DNA of 57,218 nucleotides from Fibrobacterota bacterium. GTDB taxonomy: Bacteria > Fibrobacterota > Fibrobacteria > UBA11236. The stretch lies in NCBI GenBank assembly GCA_019509785.1, contig JAEKLQ010000048.1:1-57218 (forward strand), read 5' to 3'. A program made the translations under genes and the position numbers. Below, one piece after another: positions 26,475 through 34,902 of the stretch (positions within the stretch are counted from its first letter, which is position 1; each line of letters starts with the position of its first letter). Under the pieces are notes generated by a model. That model was not told the DNA's origin. It saw only the letters and a list, made by a program, of their open reading frames with translations, and did not search any database.

Positions 26475-27152
26475 ATGCGCCGCTTCCTGATCGCGATTGC
26501 CGCCTTAAGCCTGGTTTCCATGTCCTGGGGACATTTCACGCCAGGCTCGCTCAAGTTCTCCCGTCCCAGCCCCTACCATCCCGGCGATACGGTTACGGTG
26601 TCCTACGCCGTAGAGGTCGTGCATGGCGTCATCGATATCGATTTTTCGCTGAACGGAAAAACCTGGACCTCGGTCAAGTCCGGCATCGCCGCGAAAAGCA
26701 AGATGACCTACACCTACAAGTGGACGGTGGGACAAGACACGACCAGCCATGGAAAGCTTCGGATCTGCCAAGAGAACGGGACCAAATGCACCAATGCCGA
26801 TACGACCAATGATCCGAGTGGCGCCATAAACGGGGCCCGCTACGTCCTCATCAGCCCTCTCATATCCATCGTGGCCCCGACTTCGAACCTATCCCAGTTC
26901 GCCTCCGATGCCGCCCCGACCCTGCGCGAAGTCGGGCCCGGTTCGCTGGAGCTGGGCTTCTCCCTGGCTTCCGAAGGCCCCGTCAGCCTGATCGCATACG
27001 ATGCCCAAGGACGGGAAGCGGCCCTCCTGTTGCGGGATCGGTTTTCCGCCGGCGCGCATCGCTTTTCGCTCTTCTCCCAGGCCCTGCGCGAGCACCCCGC
27101 CTGGCTCTTGCGCCTGAACGTGGCCGGGCAAAACCAACCGCTCGGTCGCTGA
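26475..27152 (+). CDS. Secreted His-first paralog family protein, member 1
   Basis: 225 residues; no named family recognised. A signal peptide (MRRFLIAIAALSLVSMSWG) would be cut before HFTPGSLKF, leaving histidine as the first mature residue. The roughly 110-residue N-domain is beta-rich (GDTVTVSYAVEVVHG, NGKTWTSV, TSHGKLRICQENGTKC). It shares GSL, VTV, a Ser/Asn-Gly-x-x-W turn and a C-x6-C pair with the proteins at 29720 and 33491. Its three histidines (first residue, VVHG, SHGK) are matched in 29720. The C-terminal domain (VSLIAYDAQGREAALLL, AGAHRFSLFS) is the shared module also found alone at 28704. It starts 34 bases after dnaN. A role in metal binding or carbohydrate interaction is inference. 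Confidence 0.7.
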   Translation: MRRFLIAIAALSLVSMSWGHFTPGSLKFSRPSPYHPGDTVTVSYAVEVVHGVIDIDFSLNGKTWTSVKSGIAAKSKMTYTYKWTVGQDTTSHGKLRICQENGTKCTNADTTNDPSGAINGARYVLISPLISIVAPTSNLSQFASDAAPTLREVGPGSLELGFSLASEGPVSLIAYDAQGREAALLLRDRFSAGAHRFSLFSQALREHPAWLLRLNVAGQNQPLGR

Positions 27153-27230
27153 CGCCGCGGCGACAGGATCATTCCCAGAGGCGCCCTTATGATTGCGCCC
27201 TCCTAAGCCGAGGGCCTATAATCCGGGGTG

Positions 27231-28625
27231 ATGCCCCGTCTTCCCGTTTGCGTTCCTTTCCTATTCGCCGCCCTCCTGGCGGCTCCCGCCTTTTGGGCGA
27301 CCCCCCTCTTCGCCCGTCCCAGCTTACCTGAATTACCTCTCGGCACCGCTTCCGCCTCCTTCGCGGGCGGCGGTGCGGCCCATGCCGCCGGAGTCGGGTC
27401 CATCTTCGTCAATCCCGCCGCCTTGTCGGTCCACGATGCCTTCCAGGCCGAGACCGGATTGATGGGCATTTCCGCCGGGCCATCGCCCTACTTACTGTTC
27501 GGCGCGCCGGCCGGAGAGCATTCCTCTTACGCATTGGGCTACTGGTACGATTCGCGGCCGGGCGATCCCGCTTCGCCCCAGGCGCCGAGGCAAGGTTTGG
27601 TAGCGGGGGCGGCTTGGGAGGGCCTCTCCTTCGCCTCGGTCGGCGGCATGCTCAAAAGCGCGGGGACCGGCGATGGCATCGGCCGCGATGGCTTCGGAAT
27701 CGATGCCGATGTAGGCGCCTTGCTGCGTCCTTGGAAAGCGGCTTGGCTGGGCCTGGTACTGCACGATGCCATGGAATCGGGAGTGGGACAGGAGCCGGGC
27801 GGATTCCGGACGCACCGAAGTTATGCCGCCTCCCTCGGCACGGGCCTTTCGGGTTTCCGCTGGGCGGGAATCGATTTCCACGATCCCGATGCCTATTATG
27901 AACTGCGCTCCCAGGGTTTGCTTCCCGATGCCCGCATGGAGCATGCCTTTTCCGCGGCGGCGGCGTTCTTTCCGGGCGGAAGGCTGGGTTTCCGGGGGAC
28001 GCTGGCCGTGCCGCAGGCCGGTTCGGCGGCCTTCGCTTGGGGGACCTTCCTCAACCTCCCTTTAGGGGACGGGGCGCTGGTGGTGGCTTACGTGATCCAC
28101 GCCGGCGATAGCCCGGAAACGGGCGAAGGGGAAACCTCCCATTCCCTATCCTTGAATTTCCGCATGGGGGGCCGGCTCGATCCCTTGCCTCCCACGGTGG
28201 AGGTGACCGCGGATAAGCCGACCCTGGTTTTGGGCGACTCGACAGGCGAACTCTTCCGGCTTTCCGCGCGCGACCTGACCTATGTGCACGGCCGTTCGGA
28301 AGCCCCGGTCGCGGACGCGGAATCCCGCTGGGGGGGACGTCAACCGGCCTTGGACGAGGGCCGTTCCTTGGCGGAAGGCCGCATCCGCGCTTGGAGCCTT
28401 AGCATTTGCGGGACCGGGACGGACGGAATGGCGGGGCCCCTTCTGAAAACCTTCCAAGGCAAAGATTTGCCTCCCAGGATAATCCGATGGGATTTGGATA
28501 ACGATTCCGGCGGCAAAGTACCCGCCGGCTTCTATGCCTACCGAATGGAAGCGGAGGATGCCGCCGGAAACGCCGCTGCGACAGGTTGGCAATTGGTCCG
28601 CATCGAGACGCCCCCCTCTCCCTGA
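27231..28625 (+). CDS. PorV/FadL-like outer-membrane barrel protein with FlgD-type Ig domain
   Basis: 464 residues. A signal peptide (to about 29) is followed by ASFAGGGAAHAAGVGSIFVNPAALS, the typical N-terminal plug of PorV/UPF0164-type barrels. Alternating aromatic strands then run to about residue 315. The C-terminal region contains a FlgD-like immunoglobulin pattern (RIIRWDLDNDSGGKVPAGFY followed by AYRMEAEDAAGN). Such barrels occur in FCB bacteria, some being accessory to the type IX secretion system. A GTG directly before the ATG is also possible as start. It lies between two of the secreted paralog genes and could serve as their outer-membrane partner, which is only inferred from position. 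Confidence 0.6.
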   Translation: MPRLPVCVPFLFAALLAAPAFWATPLFARPSLPELPLGTASASFAGGGAAHAAGVGSIFVNPAALSVHDAFQAETGLMGISAGPSPYLLFGAPAGEHSSYALGYWYDSRPGDPASPQAPRQGLVAGAAWEGLSFASVGGMLKSAGTGDGIGRDGFGIDADVGALLRPWKAAWLGLVLHDAMESGVGQEPGGFRTHRSYAASLGTGLSGFRWAGIDFHDPDAYYELRSQGLLPDARMEHAFSAAAAFFPGGRLGFRGTLAVPQAGSAAFAWGTFLNLPLGDGALVVAYVIHAGDSPETGEGETSHSLSLNFRMGGRLDPLPPTVEVTADKPTLVLGDSTGELFRLSARDLTYVHGRSEAPVADAESRWGGRQPALDEGRSLAEGRIRAWSLSICGTGTDGMAGPLLKTFQGKDLPPRIIRWDLDNDSGGKVPAGFYAYRMEAEDAAGNAAATGWQLVRIETPPSP

Positions 28626-28703
28626 ACCGCGACGCTTTTCTCCGGTTTATTGCCAACCCCGCCGGGTAAACCGGCGATATATTGCACTCCGGAGGTTACC
28701 CCT

Positions 28704-29051
28704 ATGCCGTTGCAGCGAATGGGTTTAGCGGTCTTGTGCGCGCTCGGAACCGCCCTGGCGGGCGGCGATCGATCCGGGACCGAACATGACGCCTGGTTCT
28801 CGCCCACCCTTCGCTGGGAAGGGGGTAGCTTGGATGTTACCTTCGGGATGGATGAGGCCGCGCAGGTCTCGCTGCTCGCCTTCGACGCCCAAGGCCGGGC
28901 CCTGGCGACCTTGGTGGAGGGCCCGCAACCGGCGGGGTACCACCATCTTTCCTTGTTCAGCAACCGCTTGCAGTGCCTGGACGGCCGCGCCTATTTCCAA
29001 TTGCGCGCCGGCAGCCGGGTGCTCGCCGAATTGCGCCCGCGGGCCATTTAG
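28704..29051 (+). CDS. Small secreted protein consisting of the shared C-terminal module
   Basis: 115 residues. The ATG at 28704 has GGAGG eight bases upstream and begins a signal peptide (MPLQRMGLAVLCALGTALAG). After a linker of about 25 residues the rest matches the C-terminal module of the neighbouring paralogs: VSLLAFDAQGRALATL, then AGYHHLSLFSNRLQ and FQLRAGSRVLAEL. It lacks the His/Cys N-domain. It may be a free-standing version of an anchoring or sorting domain, or a degraded paralog; the strong ribosome site argues that it is expressed. Confidence 0.65.
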   Translation: MPLQRMGLAVLCALGTALAGGDRSGTEHDAWFSPTLRWEGGSLDVTFGMDEAAQVSLLAFDAQGRALATLVEGPQPAGYHHLSLFSNRLQCLDGRAYFQLRAGSRVLAELRPRAI

Positions 29052-29057
29052 ATCCCA

Positions 29058-29561
29058 TCACTTTCCCGGGAATTGGCCTTCCACCAAGGCTTCCATTTCC
29101 TTTTCATGGGCGGAAGTGTATTCGGGCATGGCTTTGAGGAGCTTTCCGTTACGGCCGAACACGTAGACGGAAGGCAGCCCCTCGAAACCGAACACCTTGG
29201 ACTGGGTGTCGTCGGCGTCCCAGAGCACCTGGTAGGGAATCTTCATGGCATGAACGAACTTGGCCACTTTTTCCTTAGGGCCTTTATCGGTGGAGACGCC
29301 GGCTACTACGAGACCCTTGGGGCCGTATTTGTCATGCAGGCGCGCGAGCACGGGAATGGTCTCCCGGCAAGCGACGCACCAGGTCGCCCAGAAATCGATG
29401 ACGACTACCTTGCCCTTCCATTCCTTGGATTCATGGGGCTTGCCTTCCAAATCCGGCAAAGCCAAGGGAGGCAGGGCCGGCGGAGGGGAGGCGAAAATCG
29501 GCGCCGTAAGCGCGGCGAAAACCAGGAAAACCGGGCCGGAGAAAGGTTGGGATTTGCGCAT
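29058..29561 (-). CDS. TlpA/ResA-like periplasmic thioredoxin
   Basis: 167 residues with a signal peptide (about 1-24), then a redoxin/TlpA domain. The active site is WATWCVACRETIP (CxxC), followed by the family's GVSTDKG segment and the cis-proline segment LPSVYVFGRNGKLL. Such proteins reduce disulfides outside the cytoplasm, often for cytochrome c assembly or copper-site proteins. That fits the neighbourhood, which has two triheme lipoproteins and Cys-pair secreted proteins. It is convergent with the small module gene, seven bases away. Confidence 0.9.
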   Translation of the reverse strand: MRKSQPFSGPVFLVFAALTAPIFASPPPALPPLALPDLEGKPHESKEWKGKVVVIDFWATWCVACRETIPVLARLHDKYGPKGLVVAGVSTDKGPKEKVAKFVHAMKIPYQVLWDADDTQSKVFGFEGLPSVYVFGRNGKLLKAMPEYTSAHEKEMEALVEGQFPGK

Positions 29562-29719
29562 ATGCCATTTATATACTCAATCCGGGCCTTCCGGTTTCCC
29601 CAATTCTGCGTGAAACGTTTTCGCCGGGAGGGGGGACAAAGGGTACAAAGGGCCCGACGAGGGGACCGGGTCTATCCGGGCGTCAGGTTTAGGGCGGTTT
29701 AACTTCAAGGAGCGATACT

Positions 29720-30403
29720 ATGCGATTTCCCAACAACGGGATTACGGGGATGATTGTTCTGGCGGCGGCCGGATGGGCGGGGGCGCATTTGTCGGCGGGA
29801 AGCCTTACCCTCTCTCCCGCGGCGCCTTTTACCTCCGGCGCTCAGGTGACGGTAGGATGGAAAGTCGATGTTTCCCATGGCTTCCCGATTAACATCGATA
29901 TGTCCAGCGATGGCGGTACCACTTGGAAGCCGGTCAAGGCCGGACTGACGGACGCGAGCGGCACGGCTAGCTACAAAATGACCATGCCGACCGACGCGAC
30001 CACTCACGGAAAAATCAGGGTGTGCCAGGGATCGGCTTCCGATTGCGCTAGTATCAAGGTATCGCAGCCTGGTGCCGCGCCTTATACCCTCGTGAGCAGC
30101 GAGTTCACCATTACGGGGAGCACGGCGATCGTCGCCGCTTCTCAGCGGGCATACGCCTTGGGTTTCGAGCCGGCCTCCGGTAAGTTCGTGGCCAACTTCG
30201 ATCTGCCCCGCGATGAAAACGTGCTTCTGCAAGCCTTCGACTTCCAGGGTCGGCTCCAGGCTACCTTGTTGCAGGGAGCGTTCCAAGCGGGACAACACAA
30301 GCTCGCGGTTTCCCTGCCTCAGGCCCTCGCCGCTTCTCCCGCCATGGTGGTCCGCTTGACGCTTGGCGAAGCGGTCCATACCCAGGCCTTCACTCGCCCA
30401 TAA
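29720..30403 (+). CDS. Secreted His-first paralog family protein, member 2
   Basis: 227 residues with AAGGAG eight bases before the ATG. The signal peptide ends AAAGWAGA, an A-x-A site, directly before HLSAGSLTL, so the mature protein should start with histidine. The N-domain parallels member 1: GAQVTVGWKVDVSHGFPINI, DGGTTWKPV, TTHGKIRVCQGSASDC (C-x6-C). The C-terminal module is present (VLLQAFDFQGRLQATLL, AGQHKLAV). A clear terminator follows. The three conserved histidines and the disulfide-like pair suggest an extracellular metal site, but no enzyme family can be claimed. Confidence 0.7.
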   Translation: MRFPNNGITGMIVLAAAGWAGAHLSAGSLTLSPAAPFTSGAQVTVGWKVDVSHGFPINIDMSSDGGTTWKPVKAGLTDASGTASYKMTMPTDATTHGKIRVCQGSASDCASIKVSQPGAAPYTLVSSEFTITGSTAIVAASQRAYALGFEPASGKFVANFDLPRDENVLLQAFDFQGRLQATLLQGAFQAGQHKLAVSLPQALAASPAMVVRLTLGEAVHTQAFTRP

Positions 30404-30469
30404 GACCCCTTTGTTTTAAGGGCGCTTAGTCCAAGGCCTCCTGCCGGCCCTCAGGCGCCGGCAGTGCCT

Positions 30470-30513
30470 GCCGGGCCCGGAATTTCAGCATCCGGGTCCG
30501 GCTTTCTTTTTTT
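30470..30513 (+). terminator. Rho-independent terminator
   Basis: An 11-bp stem GCCGGGCCCGG / CCGGGTCCGGC (one G-U pair) with an 11-base loop, followed by TTTCTTTTTTT. It ends the transcript of the secreted paralog at 29720 and stands just before the convergent DUF3570 gene. Confidence 0.88.
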
Positions 30514-30544
30514 GGCCTCGCGGGTACTTTTTTCCAACGCCCTG

Positions 30545-31747
30545 CTACAGGTCGAACGACAATCCCAGCATGAACGTCCCCTCTTGATAATGCTCGTCCG
30601 TGGGAAACAGCTGGGTATGGAACATGGGCGTTACCCCGTTCTTCTCGCCTTTGGTGCTGCGGATCCCGTGATCGTAGCTTAAGTCCCAACGGTCCGGCAG
30701 CCAGGCGGAAGAGGCCCAGCTATCCGGAAAGGTCGAGCCGATCTTGAGTCCTACCAACAAGGACGAGAAGGCGTAGTAGCGGATGTCCCCCGTGCGATAG
30801 AGTTCGTTCCCGTCGTAGGCCGGGCGCGCGAAGGCGGCGGCGCTTTGCTTATAGCCCCGGGCCCGTATACGTACGTAGGTGCCTTCCCGCAAGTACTGGT
30901 ACCATTGCAGATCGGCCGTACCCGAATGCAACTTCCAATCGTCCTGATACCAGCGCGTATCGAGATGGAAGGAGGCTAGCTTGTCGCCAAGCCGGACGCC
31001 CTGGATGAGTTGCCCCGACAGGGCCCAGGCGGTTTTGCGATTGGGCAGATTCTCCAGGATATCGTCCCCGGAATCGGTGACGACCGGGGTATAGGGATGC
31101 CCCAGGAAGCCGGAGCTATGGATGACGTTGAGGGTGATTCCCGCCAGGGTCAACGGAGAGAGCGTTTGGGACAGGCTGGCGCCCAAGGAAATGATGCGGC
31201 GGTCCCCGCCCAAGCCCGTGAATGGCCCGGTGGGATGCATGTTGTCGAAGAAGACGGCGGCCGATCCGCCCAGGGTGGTGTTGCGCTCGTTGAAATCAAG
31301 CGAGCCGGAGACGGAGGGCGAGTAGGAGGTATAATCGTTTTCGTCGCTGAAGTAGAAGGACGCCGAAGCCGCGCGGCCGGCCTGGGAGTAGGCGCCGGTG
31401 ACCTGCTCGGAGTGGCGGATCTCGCGGCGCGATGCCCCCGAGATGCCGTCCAGGACTTGATCGTGATCGGCCAAGGTGCCGACATTGCGCAGTCCCAGCC
31501 TGCGCGAAGCGCCGGACACGTAATCGAGTTCCTGATCGTATTGCAGCTTCCAGGACGAAGCCAACTTGCGGAAGAAGGACAGGGCGGGGGTGTGGTTCCA
31601 CACCTGGTTCTTGTCCCAGTAGTACATGTATTTGAAATCCAGGCCCTGATCGCCTTCCGCGGCTCGGAGGGGCGAGGGTAACATCAGGGTTACTGCCGCC
31701 AAGCCGGCGGCCAAGGCGCGGCGCCCGGGAGTCTTCAGCATCCGCAA
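30545..31747 (-). CDS. DUF3570-like outer-membrane protein
   Basis: 400 residues. A signal peptide (to about 29) precedes a protein made of amphipathic beta strands with many Tyr/Trp residues. It ends in FMLGLSFDL, a terminal-phenylalanine-type strand of outer-membrane barrels. Segments FKYMYYWDKNQVW, QYDQELDYVSGASRR and PSVSGSLDFNERNTTLGG fit the DUF3570 family as I know it. DUF3570 genes often sit directly after DUF4266 genes, as here (13-base overlap). It probably forms the pore or anchor of this redox operon. The function is not established. Confidence 0.7.
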   Translation of the reverse strand: MRMLKTPGRRALAAGLAAVTLMLPSPLRAAEGDQGLDFKYMYYWDKNQVWNHTPALSFFRKLASSWKLQYDQELDYVSGASRRLGLRNVGTLADHDQVLDGISGASRREIRHSEQVTGAYSQAGRAASASFYFSDENDYTSYSPSVSGSLDFNERNTTLGGSAAVFFDNMHPTGPFTGLGGDRRIISLGASLSQTLSPLTLAGITLNVIHSSGFLGHPYTPVVTDSGDDILENLPNRKTAWALSGQLIQGVRLGDKLASFHLDTRWYQDDWKLHSGTADLQWYQYLREGTYVRIRARGYKQSAAAFARPAYDGNELYRTGDIRYYAFSSLLVGLKIGSTFPDSWASSAWLPDRWDLSYDHGIRSTKGEKNGVTPMFHTQLFPTDEHYQEGTFMLGLSFDL

Positions 31748-31986
31748 CCGCCTCCCGAGCCCGCGCTGCCGCCCGCCGAGCCTTCGCGGCGCGGCAGGTT
31801 ATGCGCTTCCATCCCCGCGCCCTGCGGATCCGGCGTATGCTGCATGATGGGATCGGCCAGGTATTCCCGGTCCTTCTGCTTGACCATGGCGCAGCCGGAA
31901 AGCCCGGACAATGAGCAGGAAAGAAGCCCCATGCAGGCGAGCCAGGCGAAAGCCTGGCGTAGGGATAACGGTTGCGATGGCTTCAC
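31735..31986 (-). CDS. DUF4266-like small lipoprotein with Gly/Cys tail
   Basis: 83 residues. The lipobox LSGC places the lipidated cysteine near residue 32. The conserved core VKQKDREYLADPIM and a C-terminal tail of Gly/Ser ending GGGCGC are the features of DUF4266. The tail cysteines could bind metal or be modified. The start overlaps the stop of the upstream triheme gene (ATGA) and the end overlaps the DUF3570 start, so the three are translationally coupled. Confidence 0.75.
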   Translation of the reverse strand: MKPSQPLSLRQAFAWLACMGLLSCSLSGLSGCAMVKQKDREYLADPIMQHTPDPQGAGMEAHNLPRREGSAGGSAGSGGGCGC

Positions 31987-32666
31987 GGCGTCTCCTCGGG
32001 CAATGCGGGCAGGCCCTTATGCGGCGCGGCCCAACGATAGTCTTTCCCGCCCGGGTGGCAGGCCACCGCCGAGCAGGTTTCCGATTCCGGATTGAAGCTT
32101 GCCGAATCGCCGCCGTATTGGGCGGGATCGGAATTGCGGGGATCGAAAGCGACGTCCACGGTCCCATTCAGATGCGCCAGGGTCGTCACGTATTCTTCGA
32201 AGAGAGGGTGGGCTCCGGGGCGCTCCGTTTGGGCGATGGGATGGTTTTGATGCAGGGAATCCACGCGCAACAAGGACAAGCTGCGAATGGGCGTGCCCGC
32301 GGGCGTGATGTCCCCGGAATGCGGATGCTGCGAAGAGAAATATTTCGAGCCATCGGTGTCCTGGAAGACGGTGTCGATGACGATCACCATCTCGCTTCTG
32401 ATGGATCGGGTATGGCAATCCAGGCAAGTGATGCGGCCGTTGAGCAGGCGGTTGGCGCTGGCGGTGGTGAGATGGTAGTCGTGGTTGCGATCGGTGAGAG
32501 GGTAAGCGTGGCAAGCATCGCAAGCCATCCCCTGGGGGGAAGGGCCGGTGCGGGCGGTAAGCGCCGCCGGGGCCGCATTCCAGTCCCCGCATGCCGTGAT
32601 GAGTAGGCAAAAGCCAATGCCTGCGAGGGCTAGGAAAGGGAACATCACCGACCGCTGCCTAGCCAA
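31983..32666 (-). CDS. Triheme c-type cytochrome lipoprotein 1
   Basis: 227 residues from a TTG; starting there keeps a basic n-region (MARQRS) before the hydrophobic segment and the lipobox LITAC. An ATG at 32645 is possible. Three heme-binding motifs are seen: CDACH, CLDCH and the longer CSAVACH (C-x4-CH), a type known from CxxxxCH/CxxCH proteins of metal-reducing bacteria. Several further histidines could be distal ligands. It should carry electrons on the periplasmic or outer-membrane surface. It is paralogous to the next gene (HAYP, LAHLNGTVD, FDP, SDPA, ETCSAV in both). Confidence 0.82.
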   Translation of the reverse strand: MARQRSVMFPFLALAGIGFCLLITACGDWNAAPAALTARTGPSPQGMACDACHAYPLTDRNHDYHLTTASANRLLNGRITCLDCHTRSIRSEMVIVIDTVFQDTDGSKYFSSQHPHSGDITPAGTPIRSLSLLRVDSLHQNHPIAQTERPGAHPLFEEYVTTLAHLNGTVDVAFDPRNSDPAQYGGDSASFNPESETCSAVACHPGGKDYRWAAPHKGLPALPEETP

Positions 32667-32679
32667 GTCACGCGTGCCC

Positions 32680-33336
32680 CTATTCCTTGAGGCCCGGTAG
32701 CCCTTTGCGGGGCGCGGCGAAGCGGTAGGGATCGTTTCCCGGATGGCAGCTGACCGCCGAACAGGTTTCTTCTTTGGCGTTGTAGCTCGCGGAGGCTCCG
32801 GCGAAGCGCGCGGGATCGGAGGACTTGGGGTCGAAAATGATATCCACCGTCCCGTTCAGATGGGCCAGGCCCGTCATGTATTCGGCCAGGCCCGAGTCGG
32901 GGACGGGTCGGCCGGTTTGGAGCCGGGGATGGGATTGATGCCTGACCACGATGCTATCGATGGGCCAGCCGCGGACGCGGGTTTCGAAGGTATCGGCGGG
33001 CGAGCTTACGGGAGCGTTCATGCTGGACACGTAGGGGATATCGCCGAGCGGATCGGGATTGCGGAAGAAGGTGTCCGGCAGGGCGACCTCGGTGGCGACC
33101 AGGGAATTGCGATGGCAGGCCAGGCAGGTGATCGCGCCGTCCTTGAATTTATCCGGGACGGTCGCGTACAAATGGTACAGATGATTGGAGTCTTGCGGAG
33201 GGTAGGCATGGCAATTGGCGCATCCCATGCCCGCGCCGGGCGTACTCCGCGCGGTCAAGGCGGCGGGATCGGTCTTCCAGTTCCCGCAAGCCATCAGGAG
33301 GCAGGCGAGAATGAAAGCGGCCAGGCCGATGCGCAT
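32680..33336 (-). CDS. Triheme c-type cytochrome lipoprotein 2
   Basis: 218 residues from the ATG at 33336; longer starts at 33387 or 33420 would add a basic leader and cannot be excluded. A lipobox (LLMAC) is followed by CANCH, CLACH and CSAVSCH, the same spacing as in lipoprotein 1, and the shared segments HAYPPQDSNH and GLAHLNGTVDI. This is the first gene of the operon triheme 2 - triheme 1 - DUF4266 - DUF3570, divergent from the secreted paralog at 33491. A role in extracellular or cross-envelope electron transfer is inferred from the hemes and the neighbours. Confidence 0.82.
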   Translation of the reverse strand: MRIGLAAFILACLLMACGNWKTDPAALTARSTPGAGMGCANCHAYPPQDSNHLYHLYATVPDKFKDGAITCLACHRNSLVATEVALPDTFFRNPDPLGDIPYVSSMNAPVSSPADTFETRVRGWPIDSIVVRHQSHPRLQTGRPVPDSGLAEYMTGLAHLNGTVDIIFDPKSSDPARFAGASASYNAKEETCSAVSCHPGNDPYRFAAPRKGLPGLKE

Positions 33337-33490
33337 GACGGGAAAGCTAAAAAAGTGGAACCGCCGGCGTCGGGAATTCGAACCCATTCCCGCTCGCGAT
33401 GGCTTATATTGCTGTCGCACCCTTTCGCGCCGGACGCTCGTCGACCGGCCCTTTCATTTCATCGCGGCCCCAGGCCGTTCGGAGGATATG

Positions 33491-34168
33491 ATGCGTACGA
33501 TCATCCGTTTGTCCATTGCCCTTGCGCTGTGCGCTTTGGGCGCGCAGGCGCAATTGAAAGACGGCAGCCTGAGCATCAAGGGCGGCGAAACCTTCACGGT
33601 GGGCCAGAAGGTCACGGTGACCTTGACGCAGACGAAGCCGGGCACCGGAACCAGGGCGGGAAAGTACGACTTTTATATTTCCGTCAACGGGGGAACTTCC
33701 TGGACGGAAATGATCGGGAACTGGCAGGGGCCGACGGGGGACAATGCCACCGTCACTTGGGATTGGAACGTGACCCAAAAGCCCACCACGACCGGGGTCT
33801 TTCGCGCCTGCCTGTTGTCGGGCGGGGAATGCACGGACCCGACCTACACCTTGAAGAGCGGGAACTTCACCATCGCCGCTTCCACCGCCCTCGCTCCCCG
33901 GGCGGCCGAATCCGCGGGCAAGGTGGAATTCCAAACCGCCACCGGCGGCTTGGCCATCGGTTTCTTCTTGGCGAAGCCGGCCCGGGTCACCCTGCAAGCC
34001 TTCGATTCCGAGGGCCGCCTGTTGGCCGTCTTGCTGGATGGCGATCACGCCGCCGGCGATCATTCCCTTTCCCTCTTCTCCAACCGCCTTCAGGCCATGC
34101 ATGGATCGGTGGCCTTCAAGTTGGCATGGGGCGGCGCATCGTTGACCCGTTCATTCGTTCTGCCCTGA
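33491..34168 (+). CDS. Secreted paralog family protein, member 3 (histidines lost)
   Basis: 225 residues. Of two adjacent ATGs the second (33491) has better spacing from GGAGG. The signal peptide ends CALGAQA before QLKDGSLSI, so the mature start is Gln, not His. The N-domain keeps GSL, GQKVTVTL, SVNGGTSW and the C-x6-C pair (RACLLSGGEC). It lacks the HG and THGK histidines of members 1 and 2. The C-terminal module is well conserved (VTLQAFDSEGRLLAVLL, AGDHSLSLFSNRLQ). It is probably a structural or binding paralog without the putative metal site. Confidence 0.7.
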   Translation: MRTIIRLSIALALCALGAQAQLKDGSLSIKGGETFTVGQKVTVTLTQTKPGTGTRAGKYDFYISVNGGTSWTEMIGNWQGPTGDNATVTWDWNVTQKPTTTGVFRACLLSGGECTDPTYTLKSGNFTIAASTALAPRAAESAGKVEFQTATGGLAIGFFLAKPARVTLQAFDSEGRLLAVLLDGDHAAGDHSLSLFSNRLQAMHGSVAFKLAWGGASLTRSFVLP

Positions 34169-34227: not shown

Positions 34228-34902
34228 ATGCCCTCCCGCCAACCTCCGTCCTTGTTGGTCTATACCCAGACCGCCGGCTATCGGCATGGATGCATCCCTA
34301 AAGCCATCGCGGCCGTGCGCCGCTTGGGCCGGGAGAACGGATTCGCCGTGGTCGCCACCGAGGATCCCGCCCGCATCCGGCGGGGATTCCTGAAGGACTT
34401 CGGCGCCTTGGCCTTCGTGAACACCTCGGGCGAGGTGCTCGACCCCGCGGGGCGGAAGGCCGTGCGGGCCTTCGTGGAGGCGGGCGGCGGCTTCGCGGGG
34501 GTGCATTCCGCCTGCGATACCGGATACGCATGGCCTTGGTACGGGGGCCTGGTCGGCGCCTGGTTCCAGTCCCATCCCCTGCAACGGCAGAACGCCATGG
34601 TGCGCGTCGAGGACAGGGGGCATCCTTCCACGCGGGGTCTGCCGAAGCATTGGAAGCGTTGGGATGAATGGTACGATTACCGCGCGAATCCGCGGCCGCA
34701 CGTGCGCGTGCTGGCGCGCTTGGATGAGGCCACCTACAAGGGCGGGAAAATGGGAAAGGATCATCCCATCATGTGGTGCCATGAAAACGCGGGCGGCCGC
34801 AGTTGGTATACGGGTTTGGGCCATACCGGACGCGCTTTCTCCGATCCCTTGTTCTTGCGGCATCTCCGGGGCGGCCTGCTGTGGGCTTTGGGCCTCGCCT
34901 GA
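34228..34902 (+). CDS. ThuA-like domain protein
   Basis: 224 residues, a single ThuA-type class I glutamine amidotransferase-like fold. Motifs seen are LLVYTQTAGYRHGCIPKAI, FVEAGGGFAGVHSACDT and HENAGGRSWYTGLGHTGRAF, all typical of the family. ThuA proteins are linked to disaccharide (trehalose, sucrose) oxidation products in other bacteria, but many members have no proven role. There is no signal peptide. Its TGA shares an A with the recF ATG (TGATG), so recF is translationally coupled to it. Confidence 0.85.
   Translation: MPSRQPPSLLVYTQTAGYRHGCIPKAIAAVRRLGRENGFAVVATEDPARIRRGFLKDFGALAFVNTSGEVLDPAGRKAVRAFVEAGGGFAGVHSACDTGYAWPWYGGLVGAWFQSHPLQRQNAMVRVEDRGHPSTRGLPKHWKRWDEWYDYRANPRPHVRVLARLDEATYKGGKMGKDHPIMWCHENAGGRSWYTGLGHTGRAFSDPLFLRHLRGGLLWALGLA

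Follow-up and report, generated by a model that had tools for sequence, protein, structure and literature searches.

Whether the histidines of a small family of exported proteins form a metal site, and which of them take part, is the question raised by a locus in the 57,218-nt stretch of Fibrobacterota bacterium DNA analysed here (assembly GCA_019509785.1, contig JAEKLQ010000048.1; hereafter the window). Three paralogous genes occur there, all on the plus strand, at 26475..27152 (copy A), 29720..30403 (copy B) and 33491..34168 (copy C). A previous interpretation made from the letters alone (the sequence-only reading) had proposed that an N-terminal histidine and two other histidines of the mature product form a single site, for example a copper site like the histidine brace of lytic polysaccharide monooxygenases (LPMOs) or CopC-like proteins. 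In silico analyses lend good support to a predicted brace-type metal site of two histidines, namely the first residue of the mature protein (His1) and residue 31 (His31), and on balance we favour the view that the family consists of exported copper histidine-brace proteins which are probably redox-coupled to a neighbouring flavin and haem module.

As had been noted, the three open reading frames share an N-domain and a C-terminal module, with 32-34% identity to copy A. The product of copy A is composed of a signal peptide (19 aa), the His1 N-domain, which resembles Kre9/KNH-like immunoglobulin (Ig) domains, and the C-terminal module, and copies B and C have the same architecture, with both histidines lost and the cysteines kept in copy C. 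The motifs GSL, VTV and G-x-x-W and both cysteines are invariant across the three. Copies A and B are clearly homologous (tblastn E 1.2e-17); copy C is farther from copy B alone (tblastn 3e-3) and is given 115 bits by the family profile. Cleavage directly before His, as suggested earlier for copies A and B, agrees with the -3/-1 rule, the cut being predicted between SWG and H in copy A and between AGA and H in copy B, while the predicted mature N-terminus of copy C is Gln (cut between AQA and Q). Of 15 family members sampled across six genomes of a single Fibrobacterota genus, the window genome included, 14 satisfy the rule at the His junction, with a small residue at -3 and Ala or Gly at -1. 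The codons of His1 and His31 are located at 26532-26534 and 26622-26624 in copy A and at 29786-29788 and 29876-29878 in copy B, in which a third, non-conserved histidine (HGK, mature residue 74) is encoded at 30005-30007.

His1 and His31 are each found in 14 of the 15 aligned N-domains, copy C being the exception for both. The conserved site is this pair, which is kept together and lost together. The HGK histidine occurs in three members only (26475, 29720 and one relative) and the corresponding position reads TGK, NAR, QAK, KAK or QGM in the others, so that the earlier claim that the histidines are missing from copy C as a set stands for His1 and His31 and falls for the HGK histidine. Comparison with 53 His1-less homologs of the phylum, which are mostly domains within larger proteins, gave a His at column 31 in 2 of these versus 14 of 14 His1-bearing members (Fisher p ~1e-12, the rows not being independent); across homologs, His1 thus co-varies with His31 and not with the HGK histidine. 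In the tree, copy C falls inside the His-bearing clade, where its sister is a His-bearing copy that occupies the equivalent position in another genome of the genus (96/97), and it has therefore lost the pair secondarily and would represent a metal-less paralog. Both cysteines are present in 14 of the 15 aligned members, their C-x6-C spacing holding in the three window copies and varying from x4 to x9 in relatives that nevertheless keep the cysteines themselves. The only member without them is a divergent copy (L034:9050-9667, G001:C161) that has His1 and His31 and lacks the usual cysteines and the C-terminal module, from which the cysteines and the tail look dispensable and the histidines do not.

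An AlphaFold2 model of the N-domain (copy B; 14 sequences) was obtained with a mean predicted local distance difference test score of 91.2 and a predicted template modelling score of 0.84, and displays strands A (8-10), B (20-27), C (35-40), D (48-54), E (59-66), F (72-81) and G (101-110). One pole of an Ig-type sandwich holds the N-terminus together with the B-C, D-E and F-G loops. Because of the strand order in the model, a distance-free argument, His1 and His31 (B-C loop) would sit at the same pole as the cysteine pair (80 and 87, at the start of the F-G loop), which is disulphide-capable, and His74 (HGK), at the start of strand F, would sit at the opposite one. With this topology and its retention in 3 of 15 members, the HGK histidine was rejected as a ligand of a single three-histidine site; what is left of the proposed brace-type copper site is a putative two-histidine site in which His1 and His31 are coupled.

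Sequence matches place the N-domain among the Kre9/KNH-like Ig domains (PF10342) and in no known brace family. PF10342 was matched by 7 of 14 N-domains scanned singly, three of which, all sister members, pass the cut-off of 24.6 bits (L068:8061 with 32.3 bits, L068:11815 and L070:1955 with 25.3 bits each); copies A, B and C individually score below this cut-off and are assigned by homology only. The match begins at mature residue 8-9, so that the His1 stretch lies ahead of the matched region. Other PF10342-type homologs in the phylum are without His1, and 51 of 53 without His31, whereas the present family has both. The sequence-only reading knew of no named family with this layout, which is mostly correct in that the domain itself is known and a brace in it is unreported: we found no published histidine brace on a Kre9/KNH-like Ig domain, a literature search combining Kre9 and LPMO returned unrelated omics papers only, and one combining Fibrobacteres, N-terminal histidine and copper returned none in the collection searched.

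The five other genomes in the genus, all Fibrobacterota metagenome-assembled genomes (Fibrobacteres or Fibrobacteria bacterium), carry 1-4 family copies each. Outside the genus, no His1 member was detected with the family profile among 392 genomes from 253 genera; the weakest family member scored 61 bits and the best outsider 53.5, outsider matches began at model position 3 at the earliest, and none of the strongest small outside candidates inspected by sequence starts with His. A single-protein scan of genome contigs gave no homologs, an alignment-based scan recovered the five sister genomes only, and tblastn against plasmids gave no match.

The genes located between and around the three copies include several with predicted electron-transfer functions. 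Copy A is followed on the plus strand by a gene for a PorV-like outer-membrane protein with a FlgD_ig-like end (27228..28625), a conserved neighbour identified by weak matches only, and by one whose small secreted product has no part other than a signal peptide and the C-terminal module (28650..29051) and is kept in sister genomes (L067, L068 and L071). A TlpA/ResA-like thioredoxin gene (29058..29561, minus strand; AhpC-TSA 1.5e-21, WATWCVAC) lies before copy B. Copies B and C are separated by four minus-strand genes encoding a DUF3570 (PF12094) outer-membrane protein in which the ApbE flavinylation motif SGAS occurs twice (30545..31741), a small DUF4266 (PF14086) lipoprotein ending in GGGCGC (CxC) that was absent from the gene list used for the sequence-only reading (31735..31986), and two c-type cytochrome lipoproteins (31983..32666 and 32680..33420, the latter matching TIGR01904 at 8.8e-7). 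The thioredoxin and the triheme lipoproteins, each with two CxxCH and one CxxxxCH, thus occur where they had been reported. From 32666 down to 30545, the cytochrome, DUF4266 and DUF3570 genes are arranged as in an operon, with the DUF3570 ATG (31741) overlapping the DUF4266 stop and the DUF4266 GTG start overlapping the stop of the cytochrome gene. A ThuA-family gene (34228-34902; 1.1e-70) occurs between copy C and recF, and one sister genome (L068/L033) has it at much the same position.

Flavinylation of DUF3570 by ApbE has been demonstrated; the protein usually occurs in the company of DUF4266 and a thioredoxin-like protein and sometimes of DsbD, and the function of this flavin electron-transfer module has been described as uncertain (PMC8238504). 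The locus carries the features by which such flavinylated modules are defined, namely [ST]GA[ST] motifs (two SGAS in DUF3570), a DUF4266 with CxC (here at its end) and a thioredoxin-like protein; it differs from the ApbE/DUF3570/DsbD module (PMC8238504) in that ApbE and DsbD are not adjacent, an ApbE of the window genome being encoded away from the locus, and in that triheme lipoproteins and His-brace proteins are added. The module is found beside the His-brace genes in 5 of the 6 genomes, the G004 copies for instance adjoining DUF3570, and the sister genomes largely keep the succession dnaN, PorV-like protein, tail protein, TlpA, His-brace gene(s), DUF3570-DUF4266-cytochrome, second His-brace gene, ThuA and recF. 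In two sister genomes, a DUF6807 (PF14100) gene that does not occur in the window locus is located between the tail-only gene and TlpA (L067:1418-2683 and L068:4958-6286).

Two further DUF3570 loci of the window genome are both devoid of His-brace proteins. At DUF3570 loci elsewhere, the only candidate for an N-terminal-His protein was a doubtful case, an fn3 protein (L122), which has no matching second His in the stretch examined. Small secreted fn3 proteins were also observed beside DUF3570, together with DsbD and sometimes ApbE, at several Fibrobacterota loci (L119:10353-10916, L110:5337-5897, L078:7933-8511 and L122:4944-5498); the first three display DAVSAAS near the mature N-terminus and the last DAMSGAS, both close to the ApbE flavinylation motif, and these proteins are possible new ApbE substrates. 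Another type of locus associates a protein of ~745 aa with TlpA and DUF3570 (L079:5073-7307, G000:C25; also L113, L114 and L116); this protein has two CxxCH and, as tested in L079, a hydrazine synthase alpha middle domain (PF18582).

Regarding export, 19 matches to the C-terminal module occur in the window genome, the best of them in this cluster, and the module is shared with other exported proteins. The SprA translocon of type IX secretion is also present in this genome, and surface export of the His-brace proteins is a reasonable inference. Three matches to haem-copper oxidases were detected in the window genome as well; the organism therefore probably uses O2 and is probably aerobic.

Taken together, the favoured reading is that one metal ion, most likely copper, would be bound by His1, through its amino group and imidazole, and by the imidazole of His31, at the Ig pole shared by the N-terminus and loops B-C, D-E and F-G. 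The protein would be exported to the surface, perhaps via type IX secretion, and the DUF3570 flavin and the lipoprotein haems would pass electrons to the brace copper or take them from it. The most likely use would be that of a redox-active surface copper protein, for LPMO-like activation of O2 or H2O2 or for copper reduction and capture. N-terminal His is known to act as a metal chelator (PMC12537917). Several points weigh against this reading. The proximity of His1 and His31 is deduced from strand order and the copper assignment is itself predicted; no third ligand is strictly conserved, and some known proteins with an N-terminal His bind Ni (DUF4198 and DUF6702; PMC12537917). The C-terminal module reaches 17.4 bits, in one sister copy, versus a cut-off of 23 for the type IX secretion type A signal (TIGR04183), a search for which gave no match in the window copies. 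Finally, gene linkage is no proof of electron transfer to the His-brace protein, and the copies of one sister genome (G001) occur at two sites without an adjacent DUF3570.

Similar layouts, with an N-terminal His and a second His or other ligand on a beta-sandwich, occur in LPMOs (AA9 and AA10), CopC, YcnI/DUF1775 and X325/Bim1. The sequence-only reading had named the LPMO and CopC types as examples, and membership of these families has found no sequence support, since Pfam LPMO, CopC, YcnI, DUF4198 and DUF6702 gave no match in window or family N-domain scans. A serious, if minority, possibility is nevertheless that the proteins carry or scavenge Cu (or Ni/Co) like CopC, YcnI, DUF6702 or anglerase, with no catalysis, the module then reducing Cu(II) for uptake. 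Outside LPMOs, bacterial brace proteins are mostly linked to copper transport (PMC10952591), N-terminal-His beta-sandwich proteins may bind Ni or Cu with little or no enzymatic activity (PMC12537917), and a ferrous iron transporter, VIT1, occurs in some DUF3570 clusters elsewhere (PMC8238504). For the metal sequesterase DUF6702 (PF20420) in particular, a model puts His1, His28 and His32 on an Ig-like sandwich (PMC12537917), and the helices that join its strands 2 and 3 come near the place of His31; these helices and the third His nonetheless set DUF6702 apart from the present family, and any sequence relation was rejected (hhalign probability 0.1), no DUF6702 being found in the sister genomes either. 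No Cu/Ni transporter or permease was seen in the conserved neighbourhood, and a chelator would be less expected as several tandem paralogs carrying a tail for surface export.

That the family would be a true LPMO-like copper oxygenase or peroxygenase, whose substrate would be a cell-wall or plant polysaccharide and whose electrons would come from the DUF3570 flavin and the cytochromes, is a tentative alternative. Six of the 14 N-domains match the SCE4755 "polysaccharide monooxygenase-like" family (NCBIfam NF043005), and in five of ten members scanned singly (best E 1.7e-4) residues 14-48, a stretch that runs from strand B through the His31 loop to strand C, align with model positions 44-78; this covers only ~35 of 146 positions and reaches at best 21.7 bits versus a cut-off of 75, which no protein of the 392 genomes exceeded. 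A PDB structure search with the N-domain retrieved Ig-like folds of a generic kind, with no E value under 0.001, among which an AA9 LPMO ranked 36 with a template modelling score of 0.44 only; the two-domain model retrieved generic tandem Ig folds only, and PDB sequence matches were rejected as relatives, being mostly sialidase Asp-box (SxDxGxTW) repeats and not whole-domain. The probably aerobic organism would suit an oxygenase, as would the GH30 gene, which does lie ~5 kb away and is weak evidence given that unrelated genes intervene and that the adjacent conserved partners are electron-transfer genes. The Pfam families listed for 14 members at E <= 1 include no LPMO (AA9/AA10), and a domain of ~110 aa is small for an LPMO. 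The more specific scenario, in which a conduit of flavin and multihaem proteins (DUF3570, DUF4266, TlpA and the triheme lipoproteins) powers surface copper-brace oxygenases on a Kre9/KNH Ig domain, as an LPMO-like system with a brace arisen anew, is rather unlikely. Improbable too, and more so, is a surface adhesin or structural Ig protein without metal, with histidines serving folding, pH sensing or partner binding: the Kre9/KNH-like Ig domain is a common structural module, widespread in large proteins of the phylum, and copy C retains fold and cysteines without the histidines, yet a mature N-terminal His so exactly coupled to an internal one in divergent paralogs is what marks an N-terminal metal site, and the pair is absent from nearly all other homologs. 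For the favoured copper brace, catalysis and metal carriage would both be compatible with the evidence from sequence.

Histidine braces are known in few kinds, in which oxygenases and copper carriers are mixed. The brace layout, the Ig domain and the DUF3570 module are all known already; what would be new is the layout on a Kre9/KNH-like Ig domain and its unusual genomic context. If confirmed, the family would provide a new small scaffold for the kind of copper site found in copper carriers and in enzymes that activate oxygen, and a case of a brace that originated within a common Ig domain whose His1-less homologs are abundant and alignable, with copy C as a natural brace-less paralog and internal control. 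Electron transfer by brace proteins is listed as unknown in a review (PMC10952591), and here a brace protein would be tied to a flavin and haem electron-transfer module set for moving electrons outside the cell.

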